Shown: piece by piece, positions 36,287 through 52,224 of the stretch
Numbering within the stretch: position 1 is the stretch's first letter
Layout: each line of letters opens with the position of its first letter
Source: Streptomyces umbrinus
Lineage (GTDB): Bacteria > Actinomycetota > Actinomycetes > Streptomycetales > Streptomycetaceae
NCBI RefSeq assembly: GCF_030817415.1
Contig: NZ_JAUSZI010000002.1
Span: 10,949,501 to 11,013,500, forward strand
DNA length: 64,000 bases
Direction of reading: 5' to 3'
Made by a program: the position numbers and the translations under genes
Notes under the pieces: model-generated
The model's database searches: none
What the model saw: the letters and a program-made list of their open reading frames with translations, nothing else
What the model was told of the DNA's origin: nothing

Positions 36287-36709
36287 ATGGGCGGTCCTGG
36301 CGGTAAGAGCGCGGAACGTGATCTCGGTCGACTGCTGAGCGGTATGGCACCCGCCCTGCATCCCGGCCGCTTCGTCTTCACCACCGTCCCGGGGACCACT
36401 GCGCCCCCAGGACTCTCACCGGTCGTCACCGTCGTCGAGGACGAGGGCCTCACCCTCGTCGTCGAGCAGGAGGACGCCGACGCCGCGCGTCTGACGTACG
36501 ACTTCGTGGCCGCCTGGATCACCCTGCGCATCCACTCCGCGCTGGACGCCGTCGGCCTCACCGCCGCCGTCGCCCAGGCACTGGCCGAAGCGGGCCTGAG
36601 CTGCAACGTCGTCGCGGGCTTCCACCACGATCACCTCTTCGTGCCGCACGAGCGCGCCGCCGAGGCCGTGGCCCTTCTGGAACAGCTGGCCGACCGCTCC
36701 GGTCAGTAA
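36287..36709 (+). CDS. ACT-domain protein
   Basis: 140 aa following the CGNR gene after 9 bp. It has two beta-alpha-beta halves: LTLVVEQEDADAARLTYDFVAAWITLRIHSALDAVGLTAAVAQALAEAGLSCNVVAGFHHDHLFVP, with the second half (SALDAVGLTAAVAQALAEAGLS) matching the ACT domain and the first a related unit. This is the small CASTOR/ACT-like class (DUF-type), which binds amino acids. No enzyme domain is attached. Role and ligand are unknown; co-transcription with the CGNR gene is likely from spacing. Confidence 0.8.
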   Translation: MGGPGGKSAERDLGRLLSGMAPALHPGRFVFTTVPGTTAPPGLSPVVTVVEDEGLTLVVEQEDADAARLTYDFVAAWITLRIHSALDAVGLTAAVAQALAEAGLSCNVVAGFHHDHLFVPHERAAEAVALLEQLADRSGQ

Positions 36710-36819
36710 CGGCCGATCGGGTCCACGGCACTGGCTCCGGGCGTACGCTGAGGTGCCTGTAGGTCACGGAGCGCACCGTCTCCCCGCGCCGGTCGCACCA
36801 CCGTGGCAGGGGGTGCGGC

Positions 36820-39800
36820 ATGGGTCAGCGCGGCATGCGGAGCAGAAGGACGCTCTTCGAGCGCGAGAGTGAACTCGCGGCTGTGGACGAGGCGTTGGCC
36901 GAGGTCACCGGGCTGGGAACGGACGACGGACGTACGCGTTCGGACGACACCGGTCCTCGCCGAGATGCCACTGGCCCTCGTCGGGACGGCACCGGTCCTC
37001 GTCGGGACGCCACCGATCCTCGTCGGGACAGCATCGGCCCTCGTCGGGATGGCATCGGCCCCGGTCAGGACGTCACCGAACCGTACGACCGGCCCCGCGG
37101 CGGCCTGCTCGCCTTCGCCGGACGCGCCGGAATCGGCAAAACCACCCTTCTCGCCGAAGTACGCCGCCGCGCCACCGCCATGGGCTGCACCGTGCTGTCC
37201 GCGCGCGGCGGTGACCAGGAGCAGCGCGTCGCCTTCCACGTCGCACGCCAGCTTCTGCAGCCCCAGCTCGCGGGCATCCCGGAGGCCGAACTCCGTGCTT
37301 CGCTGGGCAGTTGGTACTCCATCGTCGGCCCCGCACTCGGCTTGTGCGCCCCCGCCGAGGGCGCACCGCCCGACCAACAGGGCCTGCGCGACGGCCTCGA
37401 CTGGGTGCTCACGCATCTCGCGGTCCGGCGCGCGCCGATGGTGCTGGTCCTCGACGACGCGCACTGGGCCGACGCCGAGTCACTTCAGTGGCTCGCCGCG
37501 TTCGCACCCCGCGCCGAGGAACTGCCCCTGCTGCTCGTCGTGGCCTACCGCCCCGACGAACTCCCGGACCACGCCGAGCCGTTCAGGGGTCTGCCCGGCC
37601 GCGCAGGCGGGCGCCCCCTCGACCTGGAACCGCTCAGCGCGGTCGCCGTCGCCCATCTGGTGCGCGAATCCCTCGGCACACAGGCGGACGACGCGTTCTG
37701 CCGCGAATGCTGGGCCGTGACCGCGGGCAACCCGTTCGAGGCCGTCGAACTCACCGCGAAGGTACGCGACCGGGGTCTGACCCCACCGAGGCCGGGGCAC
37801 ATCTGCTGCGCGACCTGGCCGCCGCGGTCAAGGGCAGCGGACTCGTCGCCCGACTCGAACGCCTCGGCGCCTCCACCGTCCGCTTCGCCTGGGCCTGCGC
37901 CGTCCTCGGCACCGAGATCCCTCCGGTGCTGGCCGCGGCCGTGGCGGGCCTCGGCTCGGAGGAGGCCGCCGACGCGGCGGACGCCCTGCGCGGCGCCCGT
38001 ATCCTCACCGGCGCCGACACCCTGGAATTCGTCCACCCGCTCATCGCCACCGCCGTCTACCGGGCCATTCCCCGGGGCGTACGGGTGGCCCTGCACGGCC
38101 AGGCCGCCTGGTGCGTCGTCGACGCCGGCCTCGGCTCCGCCGCCGCTGCCCGGCACCTCATGGAGACCCACCCCGACGGCGACGTCTGGGTCGTCCAGCA
38201 GCTGCGCGCCGCCGCCCGCGAGACCCTGCGCGCCGGAGCCCCGGACGCGGCCCGCCGCCACCTCGCCCGCGCGCTGCGCGAACCCCCGCCCGCCAGGGAA
38301 CGGGCCGCCGTGCTGTACGAGCTCGGCAGCGCCTCCCTGCTCACCGAACCCGCGACCACCGTCAACCACCTGCGGGCCGCACTCGAAGAACCCATCGCAG
38401 ACACCGAGCTGCGGCACAACATCGTCTACCGGCTCTCCCAGGTACTCGCCCACAGCGACCGCCTCGCCGAGGCCTCCGACGCCCTCTCCCGCGAGATCAA
38501 GGTGACCGGCGACGCCCGCGTACGGCTGCGCATGCAGTCCGAGCAGTTCATGTGGGACGCCTTCCGGGCCGACGAGCCCGACTCACCGGCCCGCTCCCGC
38601 CGCCTCGCCCGGCTCGCCGACCGGCTGACCGGCCGCGACCTCACCGAGCGCTATGTGATCGGCCTGCGCGCCTGGGACGCCACCCTGCGCGGCGAACCCG
38701 CCCACATCGCGATCCGGCACGCCGAACGCGCCCTTGCCGGCGGCTTCGGCTGGGCCGAGGCCGACCGCGGCTTCGAGGTGCCCGTCCTGGTCGCCCTCAC
38801 CTTCATGTACGCGGACCGGCCGGGGCGCACCGAAGAACTGTTCGCCGCCGGGATCGCCGACTTCGAACGGCAGGGCTGGCACGGGGCCCACCTCTCCTTC
38901 GGCTACACCCTCCTCGCGTACGTACGTTTCCGCCGCGGCCGTCTCGCCGAGGCCGAGGACTTCGTACGCGCGGGGCTCCGGCTGGCCGAACGCGTCGGGC
39001 CCGGCACGCCCGCCCACTGGTACGCCGTCGGCACCCTCATCGACATCCTGCTCGCCCGCGGCCGGATCACGGAGGCGACCCAGACCGCCGAGGAGTACGC
39101 CTTCGGGGAGCCGTTCCCCGCCGCCGTCGTCTTCCCCGACGCCCAGACCGTGTACGGCGAGCTGCTGCTGGCCAGGGGGCTGACGAAGGACGCCGCCGTC
39201 GAACTCGCCGCGGCCGGGCGCCGCCTCGACCCGCGCGGCATGCGGAATCCGTCCTGGTGCCCCTGGCAGCTGCACCTCGCCCGCGCGGAGAGCCACGATG
39301 CCCCGGAGCGGGCGGTGGCCACGGCGTTCGAGGCCGTGGGCCGGGCTCGGCTGTTCGGTGCGCCGTCGGCGATCGGCCAGGCACTGCGTGCCGCGGCCGA
39401 CGTCTCCTCGGGCCCGGCCCGCGTGAAACTCCTCGAAGAGTCCGTAGGTCATCTGGAGAGCTCGCCGGCCGCGTACGAACTGGCCTGCGCCCTCGTCGCC
39501 CTCGGCACGGAGCTGCGGCGCGCGGGCCGCAAGGAAGCCTCCGAGCACCTCTACCGGGGGCTGGAGGCGGCGGCGCAGTGCGGTGCCGACGGGCTTGTCG
39601 AGGCCGCGCGCGACGAACTGGCCGCCGCCGGGTTGCGACCGCGCCGTCTCCACAGCACCGAGACGGACACGCTCACCGCCCGCGAACGCGCGGCCGCGGC
39701 ACTCACCGCGCGCGGTCGCACCCTGGCCGGCATCGCCGAGGAGCTGCACACCGAGGAGCCGGCGGTGGTGCGACTGCTGTCGGCGGTGTATCGGAAGGTG

Positions 39801-39909
39801 GGCACGGACCGGGGGGGGGCTGGGGGCGGCGTTGGGGGAGGCGGGGGCAGCGGAGAGAGTGGACACAGGGGGAGAGGGATCGGGCGCGGGGGCGGAAGCG
39901 AAGGGCTAG
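36820..39909 (+). pseudogene. Large LuxR-type AAA regulator (LAL family), two compensating frameshifts
   Basis: The start at 36820 encodes a LAL-type regulator: Walker A GRAGIGKTTLL near 102-112, Walker B VLVLDDAHWADAESL near 207-222. At 37781-37784 a C4 run (expected C5) shifts the frame; the body (HLLRDLAAAVKGSGLVARLERLG ... TPR-like helices ... LGTELRRAGRKEASEHLYRGLEAAAQ) continues in the next frame. A LuxR-like HTH (LTARERAAAALTARGRTLAGIAEEL) follows at 39664-39800. A G9 run at 39811-39819 (expected G8) returns it to the first frame, giving LGAALGEAGAAERVDTGGE and a stop at 39909. Without the shifts it would be a ~1030-aa regulator. The HTH is weaker than usual (GRTLAGIAEEL). The shifts could be sequencing errors or a decayed gene. 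Confidence 0.75.
36952..37077. repeat. 21-bp tandem repeat, 6 copies, in LAL regulator
   Basis: Six 21-bp units like GGCCCTCGTCGGGACGGCACC, coding the heptad GPRRDAT (residues about 45-86), sit between the start and the ATP-binding domain. In-frame and probably variable between strains. Confidence 0.85.
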
Positions 39910-40220
39910 TCAACGGGTGTGGGCCTACGCCGGTAGGCAGACAGGTGCCGACCCGGAGGCGGGGGCATACCGGCGTTGGCCAACAGGCGTGGGCCCACGA
40001 GCGTGGGGCAGCGGGTGGAGGGAAAGCCAACGCTTGTTGGCAAACGCTCGGTGGTGTGTGTCGGGGCCGGGGCAACGAGCGTTGGCAAACAGTTGGTGAC
40101 GGAAACGGCTCGAAGTCGCCACGTGACGGTCAACGCCCGTCGGTGGACCGGCCCCAGCCAACGCGTGATGGCCAACGTTCGCCGGCCAACGGCCGTCGAC
40201 CCCACGCCCGTCCACCCCTC
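39910..40220. other. Intergenic region of degenerate GCCAACG/CGTTGGC repeats
   Basis: About 310 bp holding many short variants of CAACG and its complement: CAACGGGTGTGGGCCTACG (39911) versus CAACAGGCGTGGGCCCACG (39981) match at 16 of 19 bases; GTTGGCAAACGCTCG (40036) versus GTTGGCAAACAGTTGG (40081); and GCCAACGCGTGATGGCCAACG with CCGGCCAACGGCCG near 40157-40195. No frame looks coding here by product. Confidence 0.6.
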
Positions 40221-40240
40221 GGGGCACGTACCATTGCGGC

Positions 40241-40738
40241 ATGTCCTTCCTCCGCCGCCGCAGCGCCACTCCCGCCGGGCCTGAATTCGACGTTCTGGCC
40301 ATGGACCCGGGCGACTGGCCCGGCAATCTAGGCGCGGGCCTGCTGCCCGCGCCCGATGGAAGCTGCCAGGGCGTGTTCCTGCGCTACGACCTGTTCGGTG
40401 GCCGTGGCCCCGCGATGATCATCGGCAATCTGCCGGAGGGGTCACCGGCCCGGGACGTCGCCGAGGGAGAGGTCCCGTTCGAGGTCGCGCAGCTGCTGCT
40501 GGCGCTGGAGAACGAGGAAGAGGTCACGGTCGTCGGGGCGGAGGACATGCCGGTGATGCAGGGCGACAATCTCCTCATCGTGCGCCGCCTCAAGCTCTCC
40601 GAGACGCGGATCTCCTGCGTCCAGTTCGACCGCAGCGACAACGTCCTGGTGACGATCGCCGCGTGGGACCGCCCCATCACCGACGACCTGTACGCGCTCC
40701 TGAAGCCCCTGCCCGCGGAGCTCTTCCAGCAGGGCTGA
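40241..40738 (+). CDS. Conserved Streptomyces protein of unknown function
   Basis: 165 aa, cytosolic (no signal or membrane helix). N-terminus MSFLRRRSATPAGPEFDVLAMDPGDWPGNL, core RYDLFGGRGPAMIIGNLPEGS and LKLSETRISCVQFDRSDNVLVTIAAWDRPI. I do not recognise a named domain; its even composition and codon usage mark it as a real gene. The start has no strong ribosome site (CATTGCGGC before ATG). It stands alone between the repeat region and the siderophore operon, convergent with the latter. Confidence 0.75.
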   Translation: MSFLRRRSATPAGPEFDVLAMDPGDWPGNLGAGLLPAPDGSCQGVFLRYDLFGGRGPAMIIGNLPEGSPARDVAEGEVPFEVAQLLLALENEEEVTVVGAEDMPVMQGDNLLIVRRLKLSETRISCVQFDRSDNVLVTIAAWDRPITDDLYALLKPLPAELFQQG

Positions 40739-40784
40739 ACCCCCGCCGTCCGCAGCGAACCGTCGGCGGACGACGAGACCACGT

Positions 40785-42047
40785 TCAGTGTGCGAACCCC
40801 TGGCCTCGCTCCTTCTCACCCGCGACTGATTCGGTGTCCACCTCGTCCAGGAAGTGGAACCCGGGCCGCGGGTGCATGAGGAAGTCGTGGTGGGAGATGT
40901 TCCACGCGTAGGCGCCCGCCAGTGCGAACGCCACGCGGTCGCCCGCCTTCAGCCCCGGGGTCGGGACGTTCCGAGCCAGGACATCTTTCGGAGTGCACAA
41001 CTGGCCCGTGAGCGTGACCAGTTCACGTCTCGCGACCGGACGCGGCCAGGGATGAGGCCAGTCCTCCACCGCAAGGACGGTGCAGGGCTGGTCGTGCCCC
41101 TTGGTCGCGGGAGTGCGCATGTGGTGCGTCCCGCCGCGCACCACGGCGAACTCCTCGCCGTGGCTCTGCCTCACGTCCAGCACCTCGGTGGCGTACCAGC
41201 CGCAGTACGCCGTCAGCGCCCGCCCGGGTTCGATACGCAACGTCAGATCCGGGTACCGGGAGACGAGTTCGGCGAGCCCTTCGCCGTACGCGACCCAGTC
41301 GAAACGGTCCTCGGGAGCGGCGTAGTCGACCGTCATGCCCCCACCGACATTCACCTCGGCGAGGCGCACCCCGTCGTGCCGTTCGACCAGCCCCACGGCC
41401 CACCTCACGATGGACTCGGCCACCGCGAGCTGCTCCGGAGCCCGGAGCCCACTGGCCAAGTGGGCGTGAACGCCCCGGAGTTCGAGGTGTGGATACGTGC
41501 CGTCGGTGAGCAGGCGCACGACCGTGTCCGCCTCGGACGGGTCGAGGCCGAAGGGTGTGGGACGGCCGCCCATCGCCAGCGAGCTCGCGGCCAACGAGCC
41601 GGACGCCACGGGGAGGTTGAAGCGAAGCAGGACCGCGACCCGGCTGTCGGGCCCGACCTGCCGGGCCAGTTCGGCCAGCATGTGCAGCTCGTACTCGCTC
41701 TCCACATGGAAACGCTCCACGCCCAGCTCCAGCGCGGCCGTGATCTCGGCGGGCGTCTTGCCCGGACCGCCGAAGGCCAGAGGGCGGCCCGGAACCGCCT
41801 TGGCGACATGGGCGAGTTCGCCGCCCGACGCGACCTCGTAGCCGTCCACGTACGGACCCAGCGCGGCCAGGATCTCCGGCTCGGGGTTGGCCTTGGCCGC
41901 GTAGTGGACCTCGACGCGCGCGGGCAGGGCGGCCCGCACGTTCGCGGCGTGCTCGCGCAGTGCCGCCAAGTCGTAGACGTAGGCGGGGAGTTCGCCGGAA
42001 GGCAGGGAGAGTACACGGTCCCGTACGACTGCGGCGGGGATGGTCAT
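40785..42047 (-). CDS. PLP-dependent decarboxylase (fold III, SbnH/AcsE-like) of siderophore pathway
   Basis: 420 aa, last gene of the operon; start overlaps the upstream stop (ATGA). Fold III PLP decarboxylase: PLP Lys in VEVHYAAKANPEPEILAAL (about 48-66), GHS-like phosphate loop, IEPGRALTAYCGWYATEVL, and active-site TGQLCTPKDVLARNVPTPGLKAGDR. The ending AWNISHHDFLMHPRPGFHFLDEVD is the signature of siderophore decarboxylases (SbnH, AcsE). These take a citryl-amino-acid or an amino acid such as 2,3-diaminopropionate, lysine or ornithine and release CO2 to leave an amine. It is longer in DNA frame upstream but the product begins at MTIPAAVVRD. Confidence 0.9.
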   Translation of the reverse strand: MTIPAAVVRDRVLSLPSGELPAYVYDLAALREHAANVRAALPARVEVHYAAKANPEPEILAALGPYVDGYEVASGGELAHVAKAVPGRPLAFGGPGKTPAEITAALELGVERFHVESEYELHMLAELARQVGPDSRVAVLLRFNLPVASGSLAASSLAMGGRPTPFGLDPSEADTVVRLLTDGTYPHLELRGVHAHLASGLRAPEQLAVAESIVRWAVGLVERHDGVRLAEVNVGGGMTVDYAAPEDRFDWVAYGEGLAELVSRYPDLTLRIEPGRALTAYCGWYATEVLDVRQSHGEEFAVVRGGTHHMRTPATKGHDQPCTVLAVEDWPHPWPRPVARRELVTLTGQLCTPKDVLARNVPTPGLKAGDRVAFALAGAYAWNISHHDFLMHPRPGFHFLDEVDTESVAGEKERGQGFAH

Positions 42048-43867
42048 CGGGTGCTCCCGGTCGTGTGGCGCAGAATGTCCTCGCCGAGCGGAGAGGAGAG
42101 GCGGACATATCCGGCCTCGCGGTCGGCCTTGCGCTCCCAGCGGGTGAGGAGGTTCGCCTTGGCGGGCAGGGGCACTCCGGCGAGCAGCGCGGCCAGCGGA
42201 GGCGGGCAGCCGTGCCGGTCGGCGTACTTCTGGAGGGTGATGCGGACCTCCGCCCACAGAGCCGCCTCGGCATGGGGGTGCAGGTCGGCGAGCGCGGCGA
42301 GCAGCTCGGCGATGTGGTTCACGAGCAGGCAGTAGACGACCCGGTCCCAGCCGCGCTGCGCGTCGTACGTCATCGGGCCCGCGACCTCGGGCGGCAGCGC
42401 GGCGAGGGTCTCGGCGTGGTGCTCGGGCACGAGCTTGGTGCCCTCCAGATCGCGGAAGAGGACCTGGGCGGGCATGCCGTCGCCGTCGACGCAGATCAGC
42501 ACGTTCTGCAGGTGGGGTTCCAGCACCAGACCGTGGTCGAAGCAGGCGGCAAGGACCGGCGGCACGAGCAGCCTGAGGTAGGCCGACCACCAGTCGAGCG
42601 CGGCCTGCGGACCGGCCCCGTCGAGGAGGTGGGAGACGTGCGCGGGACTCGTCGGGTACTCGTCCGCGACGGCCGCCGCGAGCAGCGGGGTGGTGCCGGG
42701 CAGGAGGTGCCGGGTCAGGCCCTCGCGGACGATGACGCCGAAGCCTTCGAGCAGCTCGCGGTCCGGGGCGCCGTCCGGCCCGGGCAGGGCGAGGCTGCGG
42801 TACGCGGGCTCGCGGAGCACCGCGCTGCCGGGGAAGCGCTCGGCGAGGTCGGCCAGGGCCGGTCCCAGGGCACGGGTGAGTGCGACGGCGCCGGAGAGCT
42901 CGTAACTCGCGTTTTTGCGCAGGCAGTTGGTGATCCGGACGTTCAGGCTGAACTTCAGGAACGACTCGCCGTCGTACAGCGTCCGCACGGATGCGGTGGC
43001 GGCGAAGGGCCTGCCGCCCGGGCCGAGGTCGAGGATGTCCCCGCGCCCGAGGGCCGCGCGCAGCGCCGGGTGCTCGTGGAGCATCGCGTACTGCCAGGGG
43101 TGGGCGGGCAGGAGTCGGTAGCCGTCGGGCACGTCGGCACCGCCCTCGCGGTCCTGCCGGTCCCGTCGGTCCCGTCGGTCGAGCACGTCCAGGGCGCCGG
43201 GCTCCGCGGCCTCCTCGGCGATCAGGTGCTCGCGTACGGCCAGGTGGCGCAGAAGGAAGGCCGCGCCGGCCTCCGGCGAGTAGGCGAGCCAGGAGTCCGC
43301 CTCCCCGGTGCGCGCCTTGGGCGTGGGATGGAAGCGGTGCCCGAACAGCAGCGACTGCTCGGACACGAGATAGGCGGCGACGGGCGTGTCCGCCGGCACC
43401 GAGTCGTTCCCGGCCCGTACGGGGATCGCGTGGGGATCGGTCCCCGCTCGTACGGCGAGAGAGGCGGCGATGGTTCGGTGACTGGAGTCGATCTGTTCCA
43501 GGAACTCCTCGTTGCGCACACCGGTACGCAGGGACAGCTCGTCCTGCGTGTACTCGGCCAGCCGCCGCCATCCGACCACGTGCCAGCCACCGTCGGCCGT
43601 CTGCTCGCTCACCGGGCCCGCGAAGCGGTGTGCGCCGAGCAGCGACGTACGGCGCAGGGCGACGCGCAGCAGCACGCCGCGGCGGGGGAGCCGCAGCAGC
43701 AGACGGCCATCGGTGAAGGCGGTCTGGCGTTCGGGCGCCGACACCTCGCGCAGCAGACAGTTGAGGAGGGTGTGCGCCACGGCCTCGTCGGGGGACGGGA
43801 GTTCGGTCGTCGCGGTGGGGGCGGTGGCGGCGGGGGTGCTACCGAGCGACTCGGTCAGCGAGGGCAT
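42044..43867 (-). CDS. IucA/IucC-family NIS siderophore synthetase (second)
   Basis: 607 aa. NIS synthetase features: GHRFHPTPKARTGEADSWLAY (phosphate/ATP loop HP-x-x-K-x-R), RKNASYELSGAVALTRALGP, HGLVLEPHLQNVLICVDGDG (HxQN) and FRDLEGTKLVPEHH. Such enzymes adenylate citrate or a citryl intermediate and condense it with an amine or alcohol. It overlaps the decarboxylase start by 4 bp and the exporter by 13 bp. The start at 43867 gives MPSLTESLGSTPAAT. Two NIS synthetases in one operon suggest two condensations onto one citrate. Confidence 0.92.
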   Translation of the reverse strand: MPSLTESLGSTPAATAPTATTELPSPDEAVAHTLLNCLLREVSAPERQTAFTDGRLLLRLPRRGVLLRVALRRTSLLGAHRFAGPVSEQTADGGWHVVGWRRLAEYTQDELSLRTGVRNEEFLEQIDSSHRTIAASLAVRAGTDPHAIPVRAGNDSVPADTPVAAYLVSEQSLLFGHRFHPTPKARTGEADSWLAYSPEAGAAFLLRHLAVREHLIAEEAAEPGALDVLDRRDRRDRQDREGGADVPDGYRLLPAHPWQYAMLHEHPALRAALGRGDILDLGPGGRPFAATASVRTLYDGESFLKFSLNVRITNCLRKNASYELSGAVALTRALGPALADLAERFPGSAVLREPAYRSLALPGPDGAPDRELLEGFGVIVREGLTRHLLPGTTPLLAAAVADEYPTSPAHVSHLLDGAGPQAALDWWSAYLRLLVPPVLAACFDHGLVLEPHLQNVLICVDGDGMPAQVLFRDLEGTKLVPEHHAETLAALPPEVAGPMTYDAQRGWDRVVYCLLVNHIAELLAALADLHPHAEAALWAEVRITLQKYADRHGCPPPLAALLAGVPLPAKANLLTRWERKADREAGYVRLSSPLGEDILRHTTGSTR

Positions 43868-45057
43868 GTGTGGCTCCAGCGGGTGCAAAGAGAGCGGAGG
43901 ATGGTCGCGCATACGGTGATCAGTGCGACGGCCGCGCCGGTGAGTAAGGGTGCGGTCGGGCCGTAGCGGGCGCTGCCCGCCGCCGCGGCCACGCCGGAGG
44001 CGACCGCGCCGGCCTTGGAGAAGAACTCCAGCGAGCCGAACAGCCCGCCGGGGGAACGGCCCTTGACGCAGTCGGCGGTCAGCACCGACAGACACACCAG
44101 GCCGAGCGTCAGCCCCACGCCGAGGACCAGCCGTACGCCGATCAGGGTGGCGAGGGAGTCGGCCACGCTGTGACCGGCCAGTCCGATCGCGACGCAGACG
44201 AATCCGAACACGATCCCGGCCCGGGCACGGTCCCGGAAGGCGGTGTGTACGGGCATGGCGGCCATGAGGTAGCAGAGGTGGGGCACGGCGAACAGCACGC
44301 CCGCCGGCGTCGGTGACGCGCCCGGTATTCGTTCCTCGACAAGGGAGATGAGGTAGGGGAAGGAGATGACCGTGGAGAAGACGAAGGCGAACTCGAGCGC
44401 GTACAGCGAGCGCAGGGCCCCAGCCGGGGCGGGCTCGGAAGTCTGCGCCATCTCCGTCAAGTCGGCCTCCTCCGCCTGTGGTTCGGGCAGTGCGGCGAGC
44501 AACAGGGCGGCGGCCAGGGGGAGAAGGGCGAGCAGTGCGTACTGGCGATGCGGTGACAGCCAGGTCGACAGGAAGCCGACGACGATCGGGGCGACGACCA
44601 GGGCCGCCCGCGCGCTGCCGTGCATCAGCGTGAGTGCCGTGGACAGGTGGGTTCCTTCCAGCGCGGCACCGAGATAGCCGTTGGACGCCGCGAACGTGCC
44701 GCCGAGGACGCCCTGCAACACCAGCGCCGCGGTGAAGGTGCCGAGCGAATCGGCCCACCCCGCGAGCAGGAAGGTGACGGCGAGCCCCAACTGGGCGCGC
44801 AGCAACAGCCGTTTTCGCCCGAAGCGGTCCGCGAGCCGACCCCACACAGGGGCACCGAGCGCGCCGAACACGGTGGGCACGACATACAGCAGACCCGCCC
44901 AGCGAGCCGTCCGGTCGCCGAGCTCCGGAAGGATCTCGGTCAGGAACGGCGGCAGCCCCAGTGCCGCGAACGACGCCACGAAGTAGCAGCCCGCGACGGC
45001 GTGCACGTGCCCGGGCCCGAACCCGGGGCGGGGCATCCGCAGGACATCGGCCGTCAT
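43855..45057 (-). CDS. MFS siderophore exporter
   Basis: 400 aa with 12 predicted helices in two halves, start overlapping the upstream stop (ATGA). The MFS loop motif GRLADRFGRKRLLLRAQ lies between helices 2 and 3; a charged linker LPEPQAEEADLTEMAQTSEPAPAG splits the halves. It lies between the two NIS synthetase genes, like SbnD in staphyloferrin B clusters, so export of the finished siderophore is its likely job. Its own start is MTADVLRMPRPG at 45057. Confidence 0.9.
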   Translation of the reverse strand: MTADVLRMPRPGFGPGHVHAVAGCYFVASFAALGLPPFLTEILPELGDRTARWAGLLYVVPTVFGALGAPVWGRLADRFGRKRLLLRAQLGLAVTFLLAGWADSLGTFTAALVLQGVLGGTFAASNGYLGAALEGTHLSTALTLMHGSARAALVVAPIVVGFLSTWLSPHRQYALLALLPLAAALLLAALPEPQAEEADLTEMAQTSEPAPAGALRSLYALEFAFVFSTVISFPYLISLVEERIPGASPTPAGVLFAVPHLCYLMAAMPVHTAFRDRARAGIVFGFVCVAIGLAGHSVADSLATLIGVRLVLGVGLTLGLVCLSVLTADCVKGRSPGGLFGSLEFFSKAGAVASGVAAAAGSARYGPTAPLLTGAAVALITVCATILRSLCTRWSHTCPR

Positions 45058-46913
45058 GCCGAATTCGCTGTGAGTAGAAGGTAGTTGGGGCCGGTCGTGT
45101 AGTGCTTGTTGATGTCCGCCGCGCCCGAACGGTCCTTGGTGAGCAGGGTTCCCGCGGTGACCATCGCCTTCACGGGCAGGCGGGGCGCGTCCAGCACCTG
45201 GGCCCGCAGCACGGCACCGGGCTCGCCCGCTCCCGTCCCGAGCCGCTCGACAGCCTCGGCGAGCCGGTCGCGTACGAGCCGCAGCAGCACCGGAAGCGGA
45301 GCGCGACCGTGCCGGGCGAGCCCGAACGCGTAGGCGCCCGCGCACAGATGGACCGGGATGGTGGTGAACAGGTCGACGACCGGCTGGTCGCTCTCGGTGA
45401 AGGTCCGGGCATCGTCGAAGTCATGCGGGATGGTGGTGTTGTTTCCCAACCGCTCACCCAATCCCTCACCCAACCGCTCGCGCAGCCGCGCGGAGTTGAT
45501 ACGCGGCCCGTCGTTGTCCTTGAACAACAGCCGCAGCCGAGTGCGGCCGTCGGCTCGCCCGTCCAGGACGAGCGAGATGTTCTGCTGGTGCGACTCCAGC
45601 GCGATCCCATAGCCGAACAGCGTGGTCTGCCAGTCGAAGAGCAGCGTGAGCCAGGCGTCGAACAGGGCGAGCGGGTCGCCGTCGTAGAAGCGGTCGGCCA
45701 GGTGGTCGATGACCAGTCGGCCACCGGGTGCTTCGGCGAGCAGCGCGGCCATCGGCACGACGACGGAGTCCTGGAGACCGGCGGGGTAACGCCGGAACAG
45801 CGCGGCGAGCAGTTCGTGCCCCGCGTGCGCGTACCTGGTCTCGTCGGCATGCAGGATCGTGTCCTGGAAGCGGGGCTCGCGGGCGACGACCCGCTCGATC
45901 AGACGCTGTCCCGCGGCTCCGTCGACGAGTGTGCCGGGCTTGATGGTCCGCCGGTTGCGCAGGCCCAACGTGGCGGTGGCCAGGGGGAGTTTGACGTGCA
46001 GCAGTGGGTCGGCGGACATGGCCACGGTACGCATCGACAGCGTGGGCACGGTTTCGAGGTGGGCGCGGTCGGCGAGCACCGCGCGCCCCGCCAGACCGGT
46101 GGCACGCAGGGCCCCTTCCAGCGGGGCACCGACGGTCAACGGGTGCACGGGCAGGGCCACATGCGTACGGTCGAGCTCCCCCAGTCCGATCAGTCCGGGC
46201 GTGGGCCAGTCGTCCGGAAGGGTGCCGGTGACCGCATCCCGGGGCACGGCGAGCCAGCGCAACGAGAAGTGCGGATGGAACTCCGGTGCGTACGCCCGCA
46301 GTTGCTCCTCGGTGAGCCCGGACCGGCCGCGTGCCGTGGGGTAGACGGGATGGTCGAGATGCGCGGCGAGGGTGTCGAACGCCGGCCCGGCCGTCAGTCC
46401 GGTCCAGTCGGCCGGGTCCGCACCAAGACGGTCCGTCAGCCGCTCGGCGGCCTCCGGCCGGAACGAGGCGTGCAGCCGCATGGTGGCCAGCGTCTGACGG
46501 CACTCCTCCGCGAAAGCGTCGAACCCGCCCTGGTCGAGGGGATCGGCCAGGGCCCGCAGTGCGCCAAGGATCTCGTCGCACGTCTCATACGGGACGGGGA
46601 CGTGCGCGGGTTCCTCGAACTCCCCGACGAGCAGCGGCAGCCGGGCCGTGAACTCACACTGGAACCCGTCCTGGACGACGGGCAGCAGAAGGAAACCCCC
46701 TTGCCCGTCGGCCCGTTGCAGCCACGCGCCGTCCGGCCGCTGCACGAGCGTGCTGCGCGTACGCAGGCCGACCACGTCCTCACGCAGCAGAGCGCTGAGC
46801 ACCCGGATCACCAACTCGCCCTCAGTGGGGTCGGTCTCCGTCCGTACGCCGTGCCCGCCGCCCGTGTCGTCCGCGTCGAAGGAGCCGCCGGTCGTCGCAG
46901 TCGGGCCCGTCAC
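45054..46913 (-). CDS. IucA/IucC-family NIS siderophore synthetase (first)
   Basis: 619 aa, GTG start at 46913 that overlaps the ATP-grasp stop as GTGA with GGAGA 7 nt upstream; a GTG 15 bp further out is possible. NIS synthetase features: HPVYPTARGRSG and EFHPHFSLRWLAVP in the N-terminal part, VALPVHPLTVGAPL, MSADPLLHVKLPLATATLGLRNRRTIKPGT, GIALESHQQNISLVLDG (HxQN) and FKDNDGPRIN. The class (A, B or C) cannot be settled by eye. It follows the ATP-grasp gene and precedes the exporter; in frame with the operon's coupled translation. Confidence 0.92.
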   Translation of the reverse strand: MTGPTATTGGSFDADDTGGGHGVRTETDPTEGELVIRVLSALLREDVVGLRTRSTLVQRPDGAWLQRADGQGGFLLLPVVQDGFQCEFTARLPLLVGEFEEPAHVPVPYETCDEILGALRALADPLDQGGFDAFAEECRQTLATMRLHASFRPEAAERLTDRLGADPADWTGLTAGPAFDTLAAHLDHPVYPTARGRSGLTEEQLRAYAPEFHPHFSLRWLAVPRDAVTGTLPDDWPTPGLIGLGELDRTHVALPVHPLTVGAPLEGALRATGLAGRAVLADRAHLETVPTLSMRTVAMSADPLLHVKLPLATATLGLRNRRTIKPGTLVDGAAGQRLIERVVAREPRFQDTILHADETRYAHAGHELLAALFRRYPAGLQDSVVVPMAALLAEAPGGRLVIDHLADRFYDGDPLALFDAWLTLLFDWQTTLFGYGIALESHQQNISLVLDGRADGRTRLRLLFKDNDGPRINSARLRERLGEGLGERLGNNTTIPHDFDDARTFTESDQPVVDLFTTIPVHLCAGAYAFGLARHGRAPLPVLLRLVRDRLAEAVERLGTGAGEPGAVLRAQVLDAPRLPVKAMVTAGTLLTKDRSGAADINKHYTTGPNYLLLTANSA

Positions 46914-48091
46914 CGCTGGATCTCCCACCGCTGCCCGTCCAGGAACTCGGCCACGGCCTTGTCCACGGCCTCCTGGTCGGTTCCCATGGCCCGCAGCACG
47001 CCGAGGAAGTCGCGATTGGTGTGATACACGTCGTGCCGCTCGCCGACCTCCCGAAGCGGGCGATACGTCAACTGCACTCCGTCGACGGTCAGTTCGGTTG
47101 CCGCGGGGGCGACGGTCAGCGTCCCGGCGCTCTCGGCACAGGGGTACTCCAGCCGTGCCGCGCCGTCTCCCCGTGCGCCCAGGTCCGTCGGCAGACGCTC
47201 ACCCAGGTGCGTACGCAGTATGTGCTCGAAGAGCGGGATCTCCAGCAGGCGTGCCAGCAGCAGATCGCACTGGTCGCCGATGGCGCGGTAGTTGACCTCG
47301 ATGATTCGCGCCCGGCCCTCGTGGACCACGAATTCGGTGTGGCAGGCGCCGAATCCCACGCCGAGCGCGTCGAGTTGGGCCAGCACCTGGTCGGCGACCG
47401 GCTCGGGATGGGCCGCGACGAAGGTCAGCCGTTCCTCGATGAAGTACGGCGGTGGTGACACCGTGGTGTGAAAACCGCCCAGGACATGGCGGACATGACC
47501 GTCGCCGAGCGTCTCCAGGGTGTACAGCTCGCCCGGCAGGTACTCCTCGACGACCAGGGCGGCCCCCGGGCGACGGCTCTGGATCTCCGTGCAGCGCGCC
47601 ACCAGTTCCTCGGGACCGTCGACGAGGACGACGTCCTCGCTGGCCACGCCCTCACGAGGCTTGACGACACACGGGTAAGGAGGGTCGAGGCCGGCCAGGC
47701 CCGCGAGATCCGTGACTTCGGTCGACCACACCGTGTCCGCGCCGACGGAGGCGAGACGGCGGCGCATCTCGGCCTTGTCCTTGGTGCGCAGGGTGACCCA
47801 CCAGTCCTTGCCCGACAGGCCGAAGTAATCGGCGGCCAGAGCGGCCTGGGTCTGCAGATGGTCGCTGTTGGTGAAGACCGCGTCGGGTCGGTGATGAGTC
47901 GATATCCGGGTGACGACGGCACGGAAGTCGCGCACGTCGCACTCCAGGATCTCGATGTCCGGATACACGCTCCGGTGGGCGTCCGGCTGGTCGGTGAGGA
48001 GCGTGACGTCCAGGCCGAGCCGCGCCGCGGCGGGCAGAAATCCTTCGGTGACGGAGTCGGTCGGGTTGAGGGCCAGTAGATACATACGCAT
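46910..48091 (-). CDS. ATP-grasp ligase of the siderophore operon
   Basis: 393 aa, start ATG 48091 (a second ATG two codons on); the ribosome site is weak. N-terminal segment MRMYLLALNPTDSVTEGFLPAAARLGLDVTLLTD, ATP-grasp core PCVVKPREGVASEDVVLVDGPEELVARC, VVEEYLPGELYTLETLG, ARIIEVNYRAIGDQCDLLL (metal-ligand Glu/Asn). It is of the carboxylate-amine ligase class (D-ala-D-ala/ carnosine-synthase style) joining an acyl phosphate to an amine. Standard NIS loci (staphyloferrin B, achromobactin) lack such a ligase, so here it may add an amino acid to the citrate-amine scaffold. It is the first large gene of the operon. Confidence 0.9.
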   Translation of the reverse strand: MRMYLLALNPTDSVTEGFLPAAARLGLDVTLLTDQPDAHRSVYPDIEILECDVRDFRAVVTRISTHHRPDAVFTNSDHLQTQAALAADYFGLSGKDWWVTLRTKDKAEMRRRLASVGADTVWSTEVTDLAGLAGLDPPYPCVVKPREGVASEDVVLVDGPEELVARCTEIQSRRPGAALVVEEYLPGELYTLETLGDGHVRHVLGGFHTTVSPPPYFIEERLTFVAAHPEPVADQVLAQLDALGVGFGACHTEFVVHEGRARIIEVNYRAIGDQCDLLLARLLEIPLFEHILRTHLGERLPTDLGARGDGAARLEYPCAESAGTLTVAPAATELTVDGVQLTYRPLREVGERHDVYHTNRDFLGVLRAMGTDQEAVDKAVAEFLDGQRWEIQR

Positions 48092-48128
48092 GCGCGACGA
48101 CAACTTCCGCTCGTGGGTGGAGTGTTGA

Positions 48129-48158
48129 GGGGCGTGCTCGAGATGCCGGGCACGCCCC
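48129..48158 (-). terminator. Hairpin between small ORF and ATP-grasp gene
   Basis: GGGGCGTGC (48129-48137) pairs perfectly with GCACGCCCC (48150-48158) around a 12-nt loop. It lies 13 bp after the small ORF's stop and 38 bp before the ATP-grasp start; could terminate or attenuate. Confidence 0.6.
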
Positions 48159-48170
48159 CGGCGGTGGGAA

Positions 48171-48371
48171 TTACTTCCTCGGGAGCTCGAAGCCGGTGGC
48201 CTTCGCCGCGACCGCGAAGCCCGCACAGGCGTTGATGCCGAGGGTCGCCGGCGAGGCCGGTGGATCGCGCGTGATGCCCTGTGCGACTGCACCGGGGCCC
48301 GGGAGCGCGGTATCCACCGTGAGCCCGAGGGCGGTACACGGCGGCCGCAGGGCGCGCGGTGGCACACCCAT
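48171..48371 (-). CDS. Small coding-like ORF at the head of the siderophore operon
   Basis: 66 aa from ATG 48371; the frame is open to an ATG at 48422, but those 17 codons include TTA and have about half G/C third positions, while from 48371 on the third positions are about 85% G/C, the Streptomyces coding pattern. The C-terminal part reads TLGINACAGFAVAAKATGFE. Two cysteines (12 and 49), no signal peptide, no known family. No Shine-Dalgarno is visible, and the iron-box half site overlaps the 48422 ATG, so the longer form is unlikely. It may be a leader peptide, a peptide substrate of the ATP-grasp ligase, or chance. Confidence 0.4.
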   Translation of the reverse strand: MGVPPRALRPPCTALGLTVDTALPGPGAVAQGITRDPPASPATLGINACAGFAVAAKATGFELPRK

Positions 48372-48409
48372 TGGTGCGGCCCGTTGGGACACAGTCACGG
48401 TACGTGAGC

Positions 48410-48420
48410 TTAAGTTAGGC
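48410..48420 (-). promoter_or_regulatory. Possible iron-box half site, siderophore operon side
   Basis: TTAAGTTAGGC on the plus strand matches 10 of 11 bases of the left half of the DmdR/IdeR consensus TTAGGTTAGGC; the right half is not conserved. It would sit in the promoter of the leftward operon. Confidence 0.4.
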
Positions 48421-48522
48421 ATGTTTTGGTTTTCAACCAGCTATGGAGGGGCTGTGACGTGCGCCTCCCTTGATCGTTGCTCCAGGGGTGCGGTCACGCG
48501 CTGCTGTCGGTGATCTCTATAC

Positions 48523-48541
48523 TAAGGTAAGCCTTACCTGC
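48523..48541 (+). promoter_or_regulatory. Iron box (DmdR/IdeR operator)
   Basis: TAAGGTAAGCCTTACCTGC contains the palindrome AGGTAAG-C-CTTACCT. It matches the 19-bp DmdR/IdeR-type operator pattern that represses iron-uptake genes when iron is present. It lies 35 bp before the FhuF-type reductase start and about 150 bp from the head of the divergent operon. Confidence 0.85.
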
Positions 48542-48575
48542 TTCACTCGCTTTGCCCCCATGCACAGGAGTACCA

Positions 48576-49433
48576 ATGACCGTGGCCGCGGAGACTCTGT
48601 CGACCGGTGCGGGCACGCCCGTGTCCGACCTGCTCGTGGGCACGTACCGGCAACTGGGCGAGGTGTGCGAGGCGTTGACCGTGCGAGTCGCCGACCCGGG
48701 TCCGGACGTCACCCAAATGGGCGTCAGTTGGGCTGAGTTGACGAAGGATCAGGAGGCCCTGGACGCCTTCCTCCTGGCCGAGACCGCCCGCATCCAGGAC
48801 CGTTACGACCACACCCCGCGCCGGGACGTCGCCGCCTCGCGAGCCCTTCACGACTACGCCTGGTCCGTGGGGCTGCTGATGAGCGGCGTCTGGTACCTCA
48901 CGGGCCGGGTGCCGCGTATCCACCCCGAAGACGTACGGCTCGACCTGACGACCGGCGTGTTCGAGATCAGCCCCCGCCCGGACCTGACGTGCCTCCCGGA
49001 CGATCCGGCCGCCGCACTTCCCGGCACTCTTACGGTTCCTCATGAGGAGGCCCTGCGTGCCGAGTTGAGGGCAGCCGTTGCCGATCACATGGAACCGCTG
49101 CTCTCCGCGATCGCCCCGCACATCCGGCGCGGCCCGCGCGCCCTGTGGGGCATGGTCACCGACGACCTTGTCTCCGGCATCTCGTACCTCGGCCGCATGC
49201 TCGGCCAGGAACCCGACGCCGTCCGGGCGGCCACCGCGCTCCTGCCCTCGGCCGTCGCACCCTTCCCGGGCGGAGCGGAGTTCCGCCGGCTCATCGGCAG
49301 TGACGGACGGCAGCACACGACCCGCACCCGTATGGGCTGCTGCCTCTACTACACGATCCGCCCCGCCGAGGCCTGCGCCACCTGCCCCCGAACCTGCGAC
49401 GCCGAACGGCTGCGCCGGATCGAGGAGGGCTGA
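48576..49433 (+). CDS. FhuF-type (2Fe-2S) ferric-siderophore reductase
   Basis: 285 aa from ATG 48576, CAGGAG 5 nt upstream. The C-terminus has the family cluster ligands GCCLYYTIRPAEACATCPRTC, i.e. CC-x10-C-x2-C. The body carries LHDYAWSVGLLMSGVWYLTGR and LWGMVTDDLVSGISYLGRML, typical of FhuF. It would reduce ferric siderophore to release iron in the cytosol. It is behind the iron box and divergent from the siderophore operon, so it probably serves the same compound. No ABC importer or binding-protein gene is in the window; those must be elsewhere. Confidence 0.93.
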   Translation: MTVAAETLSTGAGTPVSDLLVGTYRQLGEVCEALTVRVADPGPDVTQMGVSWAELTKDQEALDAFLLAETARIQDRYDHTPRRDVAASRALHDYAWSVGLLMSGVWYLTGRVPRIHPEDVRLDLTTGVFEISPRPDLTCLPDDPAAALPGTLTVPHEEALRAELRAAVADHMEPLLSAIAPHIRRGPRALWGMVTDDLVSGISYLGRMLGQEPDAVRAATALLPSAVAPFPGGAEFRRLIGSDGRQHTTRTRMGCCLYYTIRPAEACATCPRTCDAERLRRIEEG

Positions 49434-49570
49434 ACATCGTCACGCGCCGACTCCGTCATACGGCGGCTCTCCGCCGCACGAGCGGTACCGGCACGGCGGG
49501 CGCCCGCGTTCCGTCCCGCGTACGGTGGCTTGAGGGCGGCCGACACATGTCTCACGACAGGAGACGCGCG

Positions 49571-49933
49571 ATGAGCGGCGAACCGACCTTCTTCGAAATC
49601 GGCGTGGCCGACCCCGAGCGGGGCCGCGCCTTCTACGGATCCCTCCTCGGCTGGACCTTCGAACCCGGCACGTCAGAAGGCGGCGGCTTCGCCATCACCA
49701 CCGACGGAGTGCCGGGCGGAATGCACGGCGGCGACGCCGGAGCCTCCCCCTATCTCTTCTTCAGGGTGGACGACCTCGGCGCCGCCGTCGCCCGGGTCCG
49801 TGAACTGGGCGGCACAGTGGAGGACCTGGGCGACGGGGGCGACAGCGAGGAGTCGGCCGCCCGGTTCGGCCGCTTCAAGCTGTGCCGCGACGACCAGGGC
49901 TCCGCCTTCGGACTCCACGAGCCGCCGAAGTGA
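49571..49933 (+). CDS. VOC (glyoxalase/bleomycin-resistance-fold) family protein
   Basis: 120 aa from ATG 49571 with AGGAG 8 nt upstream; an ATG-like start 24 bp earlier is less likely. Typical sequence: PTFFEIGVADPERGRAFYGSLLGWTFEP at the N-terminus, PYLFFRVDDLGAAVARVRELGGTVEDLGDGG and FKLCRDDQGSAFGLHEPP. These form one beta-alpha-beta-beta-beta half-fold repeated twice. Substrate and metal use are unknown. It faces the amidase gene with 4 bp between the two stops. Confidence 0.87.
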   Translation: MSGEPTFFEIGVADPERGRAFYGSLLGWTFEPGTSEGGGFAITTDGVPGGMHGGDAGASPYLFFRVDDLGAAVARVRELGGTVEDLGDGGDSEESAARFGRFKLCRDDQGSAFGLHEPPK

Positions 49934-49937
49934 CCCT

Positions 49938-51923
49938 CTACGAGGCCGACGGCACCACCCGTACGTCGGCGGCACGTACGTACGCCACCCGGTGCCCGAA
50001 CTGGATCTCGTAGTACATGTCCTTGCCGCGCACCACCCGGTGCGGCGTCGTGTCGAAGGTCGGCGCGTAGAAGTACTCGCCCGGCACCTTGTCGCCCGCC
50101 GAGTACTTCTGCCCCTTGAGCAGTTTGTACGGCAGGGGCGAGATCTCCTGGACGGGCACGCCTGCCGGGTAGGCCGCCTTCTCCGGGTACGCGCGTCCGT
50201 ACACGGGGATCTCGGTCAGTCCGGCCTTCGGTGTCACGACCGGCCCGGTCGCGCTCACCGCGGTCGGCTGCTTCGCCGGGTTCTTGAACCAGGCCTTCTG
50301 GCCGAGGTACCAGATCGCGGTCCAGTCGCCGTCGCGCCCGGCGACCGCGTACCGCTGGCCTGTGGACACACGCGAACCCACGTCGTTCACATCGATCGTG
50401 GAGTCCTCGCCCTTGGGCCGCAGCCCGATGTCCTTGACGAGCGGCGCGTCCGAGCGCGGCTGCGTGTGCAGCCGTACGGCGCTCGAACCGTGCGCCGCGC
50501 AGGGCTCGCCCTTCGTGACGCAGCCCGTGAACTTCGGCTTGTGCTTGGCGAATTGGGGCAGCACGGTCACGAGCCCGCCGTTCGATCCCGGGACGGCGCG
50601 CAACGGTTTGCCGAGCAGGGCGAAGTAGTGCTGCCAGTCCCAGTACGGGCCCGGGTCCGTGTGCATCCCTGGGATGTTCGCCGTCGTCGTTCCCGGGACG
50701 GTGTCGTGGCCGAGGATGTGCTGCCGGTCCAGCGGGATGCCGTACTTCTTCGCCAGATACTTCACCAGCCGCGCCGACGACCGGTACATCGCCTCCGTGT
50801 ACCAGGCGTCCGGCGCCGCGAGGAACCCCTCGTGCTCCAGACCGATCGACTTGGCGTTCACATACCAGTTGCCCGCGTGCCAGGCCACGTCCTTGGCCTT
50901 CACATGCTGGGCGATGTGCCCGTCGGTGGAGCGCAGGGTGTACTGCCACGACACATAGGTCGGGTCCTGCACCATGTTGAGGACGCCTTCCCAGGCGCCC
51001 TCCGTGTCGTGCACGACGATGTACTTGATGCTCTGGGACTTGGGCCGGTCGCCGAGGTCGTGGTTGCCGTAGTCGCCGTCGCCGAACTCCTCGTACGGTG
51101 CCGGAATCCACTCGCAGGACACGGTCGCCGGGCACTCGGTGCCGGCCGCGCGGGCCGCCCGCAGTCCCGTCTCGCCCAACTGCCCTGTGACGGGACGCAG
51201 TTCAGGCTGAGCAGCGAGGGCGACCTGCTGGCCCGCGTCCGTCGTGCGGTGCTCCCCGCGGCGGATCACGTCGAAGACGTCGTCGGCGTACGTCGCCGCC
51301 GTCGCCGTGTCGTCGGCGCCCGAGTAGCGTGCCACCGCCCCGTACCAGTCGGCCGCGTCGTCACTGAGCGGCTCACCGAGCTGCTTCTGTGCGGCGGCCA
51401 GCAGCGCGGCACCCCCGGCCACATTGGCGGCCGCGTCCGTACGCAGCCGCTCTTCCGGGATGCCGGTGAGATCGGCCGCCTTCGTCAACGTCTTGAGACG
51501 GGCGGGGAGTTGGGTGTTCTCCGGGACCTGGGTGTCGGGGAGCAGCGGCGCGCGTGAGTCGTCGCCGCGTGCGTCCTCCGTGCCCTCGCTGTGGTGCGGT
51601 GCCACCGTCCGGGCGATCGCGGTGCGGGCGTCCGTCAGATGCATGGGGCCGTAGCCGCCGGTGACACTCGGCGCCCCGCCGTGCGCGTCCCAGCGGGACT
51701 GCAGATAGGAGACGGCGAGGAGCACATTCCGCGGTACGTGGTACTGGGCGGCCGCGTCGGCGAACGCGCTCTGCAGACGTGCGGAGGACGCCTGGGCGCC
51801 GCTGTCGGACGGGGCGGCGCCGAGCAGTGGCAGCAGCAGGGCCGCCGAGGCGACGGCACCGGCCGTCCTTCGTGCGCGTCTGTGCCCGGTGGAGGGGCTG
51901 GAGTCGGTGGGGGATCCTCGCAA
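49938..51923 (-). CDS. Secreted N-acetylmuramoyl-L-alanine amidase (amidase_2/PGRP type)
   Basis: 661 aa; TTG start with AGGAGG 7 nt upstream. A leader of Arg-rich type (HRRARRTAGAVASAALLLPLLGAAPS) is followed by a region with lysozyme-like helices (55-240; SYLQSRWDAHGG, YGAVARYSGADDTA) and the amidase fold (280-450): YIVVHDTEGAWEGVLN, VAWHAGNWYVNAKSIGLEHEGF, LGHDTVPGTTTANIPGMHTDPGPYWDW carry the zinc-ligand histidines. A C-terminal SH3-like/peptidoglycan-binding part follows (RLHTQPRSDAPLV). It cuts the amide between MurNAc and the stem peptide outside the cell. Alone, convergent with VOC gene. Confidence 0.9.
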   Translation of the reverse strand: MRGSPTDSSPSTGHRRARRTAGAVASAALLLPLLGAAPSDSGAQASSARLQSAFADAAAQYHVPRNVLLAVSYLQSRWDAHGGAPSVTGGYGPMHLTDARTAIARTVAPHHSEGTEDARGDDSRAPLLPDTQVPENTQLPARLKTLTKAADLTGIPEERLRTDAAANVAGGAALLAAAQKQLGEPLSDDAADWYGAVARYSGADDTATAATYADDVFDVIRRGEHRTTDAGQQVALAAQPELRPVTGQLGETGLRAARAAGTECPATVSCEWIPAPYEEFGDGDYGNHDLGDRPKSQSIKYIVVHDTEGAWEGVLNMVQDPTYVSWQYTLRSTDGHIAQHVKAKDVAWHAGNWYVNAKSIGLEHEGFLAAPDAWYTEAMYRSSARLVKYLAKKYGIPLDRQHILGHDTVPGTTTANIPGMHTDPGPYWDWQHYFALLGKPLRAVPGSNGGLVTVLPQFAKHKPKFTGCVTKGEPCAAHGSSAVRLHTQPRSDAPLVKDIGLRPKGEDSTIDVNDVGSRVSTGQRYAVAGRDGDWTAIWYLGQKAWFKNPAKQPTAVSATGPVVTPKAGLTEIPVYGRAYPEKAAYPAGVPVQEISPLPYKLLKGQKYSAGDKVPGEYFYAPTFDTTPHRVVRGKDMYYEIQFGHRVAYVRAADVRVVPSAS

Positions 51924-52224
51924 AGCAGGCCTCCTGGGACGATCGGTCGCGATGGTGCGTGCGGGGCCGGGCGTGCGTCAGTGGTACCGGCTCCCCGACG
52001 ATCCGTCAATCATGCCCAGAGGCAGTTGATTTCCCACGTCAGCGGCGGGTGTCGCGGGTTTCGCGGCGACGGCGACCCGGCCTGCGAGGCGTCAGTGGAG
52101 TGGACCTGTGGCCTGTTCGGGTGAACGTTCCTCGATGGAGGAGTGCCGGGCGCGAGCGACGGCCCGACATGACGAAGGTCCGCGATGCGCCCTGTACCGG
52201 GCACACCGCGGACCACCATCCCCG
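51924..52224. other. 301-bp intergenic region
   Basis: It holds the promoter of the amidase gene and a hairpin terminator of the APH gene (52177-52214). No other structure is seen. Confidence 0.5.
52177..52214 (-). terminator. Terminator after the APH-fold gene
   Basis: GGTCCGCG (52177-52184) pairs with CGCGGACC (52207-52214), and the inner GCGCCC / GGGCAC can form a second stem. It lies just after the APH stop on its strand. Confidence 0.7.

Follow-up and report, generated by a model that had tools for sequence, protein, structure and literature searches.

A five-gene siderophore operon and a facing reductase gene

The stretch of DNA analyzed here, 64,000 nucleotides of the 12.4-Mb, three-contig genome of Streptomyces umbrinus and called the window in what follows, carries between positions 40785 and 49433 an operon of the nonribosomal peptide synthetase-independent siderophore (NIS) type, together with a facing gene for a ferric-siderophore reductase. 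The five genes of the operon lie on the minus strand and are referred to as A to E. A (46910-48085) encodes a PvsA-like ATP-grasp amino-acid ligase of 391 aa (Pfam ATP-grasp_4), B (45054-46913) a PvsB-like NIS synthetase of 619 aa (IucA_IucC) attributed to type B (AcsA/SbnC-like), and C (43855-45057) an intact PvsC-like exporter of the major facilitator superfamily with 400 aa (MFS_1). They are followed by D (42044-43867), a PvsD-like NIS synthetase of 607 aa (IucA_IucC) attributed to type A (AcsD-like), and by E (40785-42047), a pyridoxal phosphate-dependent decarboxylase of 420 aa resembling PvsE, AcsE and SbnH (Orn_Arg_deC_N and Orn_DAP_Arg_deC). All five frames are open, and successive genes from A to E overlap by 4, 4, 13 and 4 bp. 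The plus-strand gene facing A (48576-49433) encodes an FhuF-like ferric-siderophore reductase of 285 aa (FhuF_C) with the motif CC-x10-C-x2-C; its start is more likely the ATG at 48576 than the TTG at 48552. The Pfam matches of all six proteins were above the family cut-offs. An earlier reading made from the letters alone (the sequence-only reading) had described both the overlapping chain and the facing FhuF gene; coordinates, gene order, families, overlaps and the plus-strand orientation of FhuF were all confirmed.

The gap of 490 bp between FhuF and A contains a DtxR/IdeR-like iron box on the FhuF side (48523-48541, no strand assigned, 14/19 consensus positions), on the operon side what may be a degenerate iron box (48410-48428, no strand assigned, 11/19) and a short minus-strand frame (48171-48371) made up of the remnant of a FecCD permease and the last codons of a binding protein. 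This frame is the scar of a deleted importer, which the sequence-only reading had missed. An Rfam search of window positions 36000-52000 gave no match.

The scar of a deleted importer

FhuF and A are 4.1-4.8 kb apart in 32 related loci. In one of these, L036 (loci of our survey carry L numbers, sampled genomes G numbers), the stretch between them encodes a FecCD permease and a binding protein, both identified by Pfam; judged by eye, genes for another permease and an ATPase separate the two. Window positions 48350-48209 align with the L036 permease at 76%, and for positions 48213-48061 the aligned part of L036 is where the binding protein ends and A begins; relative to L036, about 3.6 kb are missing at the joint. 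A whole-genome search with the permease independently found the same place, with 63% over permease residues 69-120 and an E value of 5.6e-11. The scar shows that a FecCD-type importer of four genes formerly lay between FhuF and A in the lineage of the window. Being the deletion scar, the short frame was rejected as a candidate gene for a small conserved peptide.

The window has no dedicated importer beside the operon, the deletion having left only the scar. Elsewhere in the same genome, binding-protein matches reached 47% identity, in a homologue at 8.2 Mb that is a candidate replacement, and permease matches, the scar aside, 51%. Iron would return to the cell through another importer. We regard the importer as an accessory feature, not as one that defines the biosynthetic family.

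Synthetases and decarboxylase

D matched the AcsD structure 2w02 with an E value of 6.2e-65. Residues R305, E442, H444, R501 and K563 of AcsD, in a numbering taken from the chain alignment, align with R317, E450, H452, R509 and K570 of the window protein, and all five are invariant over eight D/AcsD proteins. The AcsD paper assigns R305 to adenylate formation, E442 to the role of general base and R501 and K563 to the serine carboxylate. Serine is a probable substrate of D on this basis, supported and not proved. In a tree of 25 proteins, the D proteins, the AcsD proteins and one paralogue from the genome of the window form one clade (support 97/93), and six B proteins, those of the window and of five other pvs-type operons, form another (100/99). 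The phylogeny that the sequence-only reading had called for places D in type A (AcsD-like) and, less firmly, B in type B (AcsA/SbnC-like). The best NCBIfam match of B was SbnC, far below the cut-off.

The best sequence match of E in the PDB was 6knh (E value 1.7e-82), which we take to be SbnH. E shares 39-53% identity with its counterparts in five pvs-type operons and 40% with the one from Sodalis.

Three further NIS loci were noticed in the genome of the window: a type C-like gene at 7.45 Mb (L001), possibly desD, an RhbF/RhbC-like pair at 3.610-3.613 Mb (L100) and a divergent pair at 3.0186/3.0202 Mb (L101), one member of which is related to D.

The ATP-grasp ligase

The best PDB sequence match of A was the L-amino-acid ligase 3vot. 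An AlphaFold model of A, computed with a 20-row alignment, had a predicted local distance difference test (pLDDT) value of 92.2, and five of the six best Foldseek matches of this model were L-amino-acid ligases (3vot twice, 3vmm, 3wo1 and 4wd3), the third match being the phosphoribosylglycinamide synthetase 4dim. Normalized by query length, the template modeling (TM) scores of the ligase matches lay between 0.69 and 0.83. Across the 20 rows, which include Streptomyces, Vibrio and Pseudomonas, 73 columns are invariant. In two alignments of A, the window protein is 33-43% identical to the rows from Vibrio, Pseudomonas, Pantoea and other genera outside Streptomyces, with the exception of Cupriavidus and Rhodococcus at 49-50%. 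A protein from V. parahaemolyticus, P0020, was found by a protein search with the A protein of Vibrio fortis and is named hypothetical or ATP-grasp in its sources; it is taken for PvsA from its species, its family and its rank in the search. It is 37% identical to the window protein over 393 columns.

Relation to the vibrioferrin operon

In two papers, pvsABCDE is the vibrioferrin operon of V. parahaemolyticus, its product having been linked to it by gene disruption, and vibrioferrin is described as composed of citrate, ethanolamine, alanine and 2-oxoglutarate (PMC5577590, PMC5812596). The sequence-only reading, which drew its comparisons with staphyloferrin B, achromobactin and desferrioxamine loci, had overlooked vibrioferrin and taken the five-gene set to be new. 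With pvsABCDE, a cluster that matches it gene for gene and in order has been described and has a known product, and the claim of novelty falls; the proposal of a citrate-based NIS siderophore to which the ATP-grasp ligase adds an amino acid is supported by homology.

A tblastn search of plasmid records with A matched 248 records, and nine among the 40 listed were opened. All six annotated loci from outside Streptomyces among them showed the order A-B-C-D-E, namely those of Vibrio fortis, Vibrio sp. THAF190c, Pantoea soli, Cupriavidus necator pHG1, Rhodococcus sp. WAY2 and Piscirickettsia salmonis. In the Pantoea soli locus A is annotated as PvsA, and in both Vibrio loci receptor and importer genes adjoin the operon. 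In the plasmid loci of Streptomyces chartreusis, Embleya and Nonomuraea, which are unannotated there, tblastn found A, B, D and E with no C in place. A new pathway class was ruled out, since five genera other than Streptomyces, Vibrio among them, have the five-gene order too.

The Vibrio fortis and Vibrio sp. THAF190c operons share with that of the window the five genes, their order and families and the overlapping or nearly overlapping arrangement, at protein identities of about 32-44%. In contrast to them, the window has no TonB-dependent receptor, which is not expected in a Gram-positive organism, carries FhuF and has lost the adjoining importer. The Cupriavidus necator pHG1 and Rhodococcus WAY2 loci have the same A-B-C-D-E order as the window; their operons and that of Pantoea (L010, L012 and L009, respectively) contain an extra gene of the aldolase/citrate lyase family, possibly a dedicated citrate synthase, which is absent from the window operon. 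Desferrioxamine (des) loci have a single type C NIS synthetase with a lysine decarboxylase, a monooxygenase and an acyltransferase; in the window, neither B nor D falls among the type C proteins, and Pfam revealed no monooxygenase or acyltransferase in the operon. On gene order and homology, the operon of the window is assigned to the vibrioferrin-type (pvsABCDE) family, and its product is likely vibrioferrin, which has a neutral mass of about 434 Da, or a close analogue.

Related clusters have been mentioned for Streptomyces. In Streptomyces avermitilis, avsABCD (SAVERM7320-7323) is termed a vibrioferrin-like polyhydroxycarboxylate siderophore cluster, with three 'siderophore synthetase components' and a decarboxylase (PMC9394381). 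From this description, avsABCD, with four genes as against five in the window, would be the exporter-less A-B-D-E form. An antiSMASH table for S. tunisialbus contains a region nearest to vibrioferrin, at 18% (PMC7385001), and the vibrioferrin paper is cited for the siderophores of Streptomyces sp. GQFP, from which L022 comes, in the report on its genome. In a search of the open-licence literature, we came across no paper in which vibrioferrin had been isolated from a Streptomyces.

Distribution of operon, importer and exporter

A scan of contigs with an alignment of A gave at least 556 confirmed relatives. The best 80 were retained, all from Streptomyces, which such a selection of top matches would lead one to expect, and together with the nine plasmid loci made up 89 loci, in which gene presence was determined by tblastn without composition statistics. 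A to E occurred in order in 56 loci (three of them holding only a remnant of C) while in 30 C was missing from its place among A, B, D and E, the remaining three being cut by a contig end. A relative of FhuF faces A in 68 of the 89.

The importer was surveyed in 81 Streptomyces loci, the 80 contigs and L011. All four importer genes lie beside A, together with a full C, in 40 loci; importer and C are both missing in 27. Three loci lack the importer and retain a remnant of C (L017, L065, L079), five lack the full importer and have a full C (L019, L042, L045, L057, L082, the last retaining part of the binding protein) and one combines a partial importer with a full C (L022). In two loci without importer the C side is cut (L018, with a 111-bp remnant of C, and L021), and in three the importer side is cut (L023, L053, L061). 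The window belongs to the type in which the importer is gone and C is intact. Because none of the 40 loci with a full importer lacked C, importer loss appears to precede the loss of C. The exporter was also caught in decay, with remnants of 111-498 bp after B in L017, L018, L065 and L079. In L042 (4671-8785), and at a like place in L057, the operon has a different FecCD-type importer nearby, which shares 37-61% identity with the L036 importer and may have replaced the usual one.

Among 199 sampled Streptomyces genomes, 46 contained A at an E value of 1e-60. The binding protein was found at 1e-75 in 19 genomes, in 16 of them with 63-100% identity and beside A; the other three matches were 44-47% identical and came from genomes without A. 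The permease at 1e-105 was found in 15 genomes, all among those 16, and C at 1e-75 in 18, which were those 16, the genome of the window and G142, where a split match to C occurs without A. Near full-length matches to C of 67-77% identity were seen in 15 other sampled Streptomyces, and partial ones in two more. Thirty of the 46 genomes with A lacked the binding protein at this threshold and 29 also lacked C; 13 of the 46 had a weaker match to A (E above 1e-165), two with the importer, and in the remaining 11 divergent transporters may miss the thresholds. Of the 46, only the genome of the window had C in the absence of the binding protein. A relocated importer is not supported, the binding protein being next to A in every one of the 16 A-bearing genomes in which it was found. 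A phylum-wide search at 1e-80, a strict cut-off that relatives such as the one in Rhodococcus may fail to reach, matched three of 396 genomes, each of them a Streptomyces. No report of this importer loss was found in the open-licence literature.

Number of losses and selection on the remaining genes

The tree computed with FastTree from the concatenated proteins A, B, D and E had 79 rows. Of the 81 Streptomyces loci, 76 were included, and the window, L012 and L014 were added; L018, L021, L049, L079 and L082 were left out for a missing or short protein. With regain barred, 13 importer losses are required within the clade that holds the importer-bearing tips, and Fitch parsimony over the tree gave 11 changes, L022 with its partial importer being scored as a loss. 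For C, 14 events (regain barred) and 14 changes (Fitch) were obtained. Shuffled labels gave about 25 and 24 on average. The tree is that of the operon and not of the species, several of its inner branches are weak, and transfer of whole loci is possible. The deepest Streptomyces tips (L093, L094, L064, L083) as well as Embleya and Nonomuraea are without importer. The first Streptomyces operon may therefore have had the importer or lacked it; for the lineage of the window the scar shows its former presence. In the clade of the window (L051, L017, window, L062, L020, L077) all members are importer-less, and only the window has a whole C.

The ratio of nonsynonymous to synonymous substitution rates (dN/dS) of A, B, D and E was compared in pairs picked as near neighbors in the tree. 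It ranged from 0.16 to 0.55 in nine importer-less pairs, one of which (L042, L057) has the other importer nearby, and from 0.13 to 0.35 in nine importer-bearing pairs. Only D differed between the groups, with a median of 0.30 in importer-less pairs versus 0.19 (p 0.003, uncorrected for four tests). The pathway looks maintained because dN/dS is below 1 and both the adjacency of FhuF and the iron box are kept.

A cluster of this form may have been noted before in S. scabiei 87-22. BGC 32 (biosynthetic gene cluster 32, SCAB_84461-84561) is listed there as a cryptic siderophore cluster, with the top cellobiose response among the cryptic clusters (PMC8914351). L091, at 9.42-9.45 Mb in the same strain, has the form without importer and exporter and, judged from the chromosomal rank order, may be BGC 32.

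The iron box

Iron boxes were scored against a 19-position DtxR/IdeR consensus. The sequence-only reading had described FhuF as iron-boxed, which held for the FhuF side, where the box is the best site of the 64-kb window; the operon-side site is, by score alone, no better than chance, 26 sites of the window scoring 11. A search of the window at three or fewer mismatches found no iron box. Among 68 loci with FhuF, the 36 gaps shorter than 2.5 kb were scanned, the 32 longer ones being left out, and all 36 had a best box of 13-17/19. Mononucleotide shuffles of the gaps gave a best site of 8-12 in 179 of 180 cases and of 14 in one. A second box of at least 13 occurred in 17 of the 36 relatives, as against only 9-12 in the nearest relatives of the window (L017, L018, L020, L051, L062, L077). 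Expression is likely to be iron-controlled through the box in the gap between FhuF and A.

Proposed pathway and alternative readings

We consider it highly probable that the window holds a vibrioferrin-type operon following the route outlined here, with the importer deleted and the exporter intact. D would activate citrate and esterify it with L-serine, and E would decarboxylate the O-citryl-serine to O-citryl-ethanolamine. A, working through an acyl phosphate, would then couple the free amine to an amino acid (probably L-alanine), and B would add 2-oxoglutarate. The product would be exported by C, and its ferric complex reduced inside the cell by FhuF. Each reaction, the identity of the amino acid and the product are predictions from sequence.

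Several observations weigh against this assignment or parts of it. Lower-scoring matches of the A model include biotin carboxylases and further ATP-grasp enzymes, and A may use an amino acid other than alanine. The B clade joins AcsA with support of only 91/89, and the labels AcsA, AcsC and AcsD of the Sodalis and Thalassospira proteins are our own, presumed from gene order, the records giving only the IucA/IucC family. The retention of FhuF fits continued uptake and says nothing of the uptake route. For D, a passage of the AcsD paper implies some activity with L-diaminopropionate. Finally, a review gives the ester to PvsA and the amides to PvsB and PvsD, and calls the functions untested (PMC5577590).

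The strongest alternative keeps the pathway and has the actinobacterial A use another amino acid, which would make the product a new analogue of vibrioferrin. The low identity of A to most rows from outside Streptomyces (33-43%) leaves room for a changed specificity, and ligases of this fold are generally known to vary in substrate; against it, 73 columns are invariant over the 20 rows, and nothing obtained here pointed to a changed pocket. We regard such an analogue as possible, with the odds against it.

A second alternative is that the locus is decaying after the loss of the importer and is on its way to a pseudogene cluster from which nothing useful is made. It would account for the deletion in the window, the exporter remnants in L017, L065 and L079 and the raised dN/dS of D in importer-less pairs, but all five genes of the window are open and full-length. 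Moreover, dN/dS stays below 1 in all 18 pairs (0.13-0.55) and is alike in both groups for A, B and E, the iron box is retained, and FhuF adjoins A in 35 of 37 importer-less loci. Decay of this kind appears improbable.

Achromobactin (acs) and staphyloferrin B (sbn) systems have three NIS synthetases and no ATP-grasp ligase. AcsD, AcsA and AcsE are homologous to D, B and E, as are SbnC and SbnH related to B and E, and in a Sodalis locus, which we take to be achromobactin-type, three IucA/IucC genes are accompanied by genes for a transaminase and an aldolase. A variant of either system is very improbable indeed, since the operon, to which the search for supply genes was confined, contains neither a third (type C) NIS gene nor a gene that would supply a diamine or diaminopropionate, lacks an aldolase resembling citrate synthase, and has an ATP-grasp ligase instead.

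Synthesis without dedicated transport

What is new here in the vibrioferrin-type operon is not the pathway but the repeated loss of its dedicated transport. The trend in the sampled Streptomyces is opposite to the familiar pattern in which receptors are commoner than biosynthesis. As a speculative extension, which we think rather unlikely to hold as a whole, synthesis may have been orphaned from transport, the pathway being kept, with an iron box and under purifying selection, in many Streptomyces although the importer, and usually the exporter, has repeatedly been deleted. If so, the molecule would serve a non-cognate role, such as intracellular handling of iron or citrate, the provisioning or starving of neighbors, or entry through a shared importer, and the window would represent a rare halfway stage with the importer gone and the exporter still intact. 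The question raised is what use a siderophore has once its maker drops its own uptake route.

For the vibrioferrin-type assignment itself, cryptic 'siderophore' clusters of Streptomyces (A in 46 of the 199 sampled genomes) become readable as vibrioferrin-type, with a product that can be predicted and tested. The division of labor suggested here differs from that of the review, with A as the amide-forming amino-acid ligase and the AcsD-like D as the enzyme forming the ester of citrate and serine.

Other features of the window

Downstream of E, 8 of the 27 GTTGGC/GCCAAC hexamers of the window are concentrated in about 215 bp (39975-40190), forming a degenerate repeat patch. A large regulator-looking coding stretch at about 36820-40331 seems, as judged by eye, to change frame from an open reading frame of 561 aa to one of 1006 aa, which would reflect a frameshift or sequencing error. 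On the other side of the locus, the minus strand encodes an APH-family phosphotransferase-like protein (52225-53367) near a gene for an N-acetylmuramoyl-L-alanine amidase.

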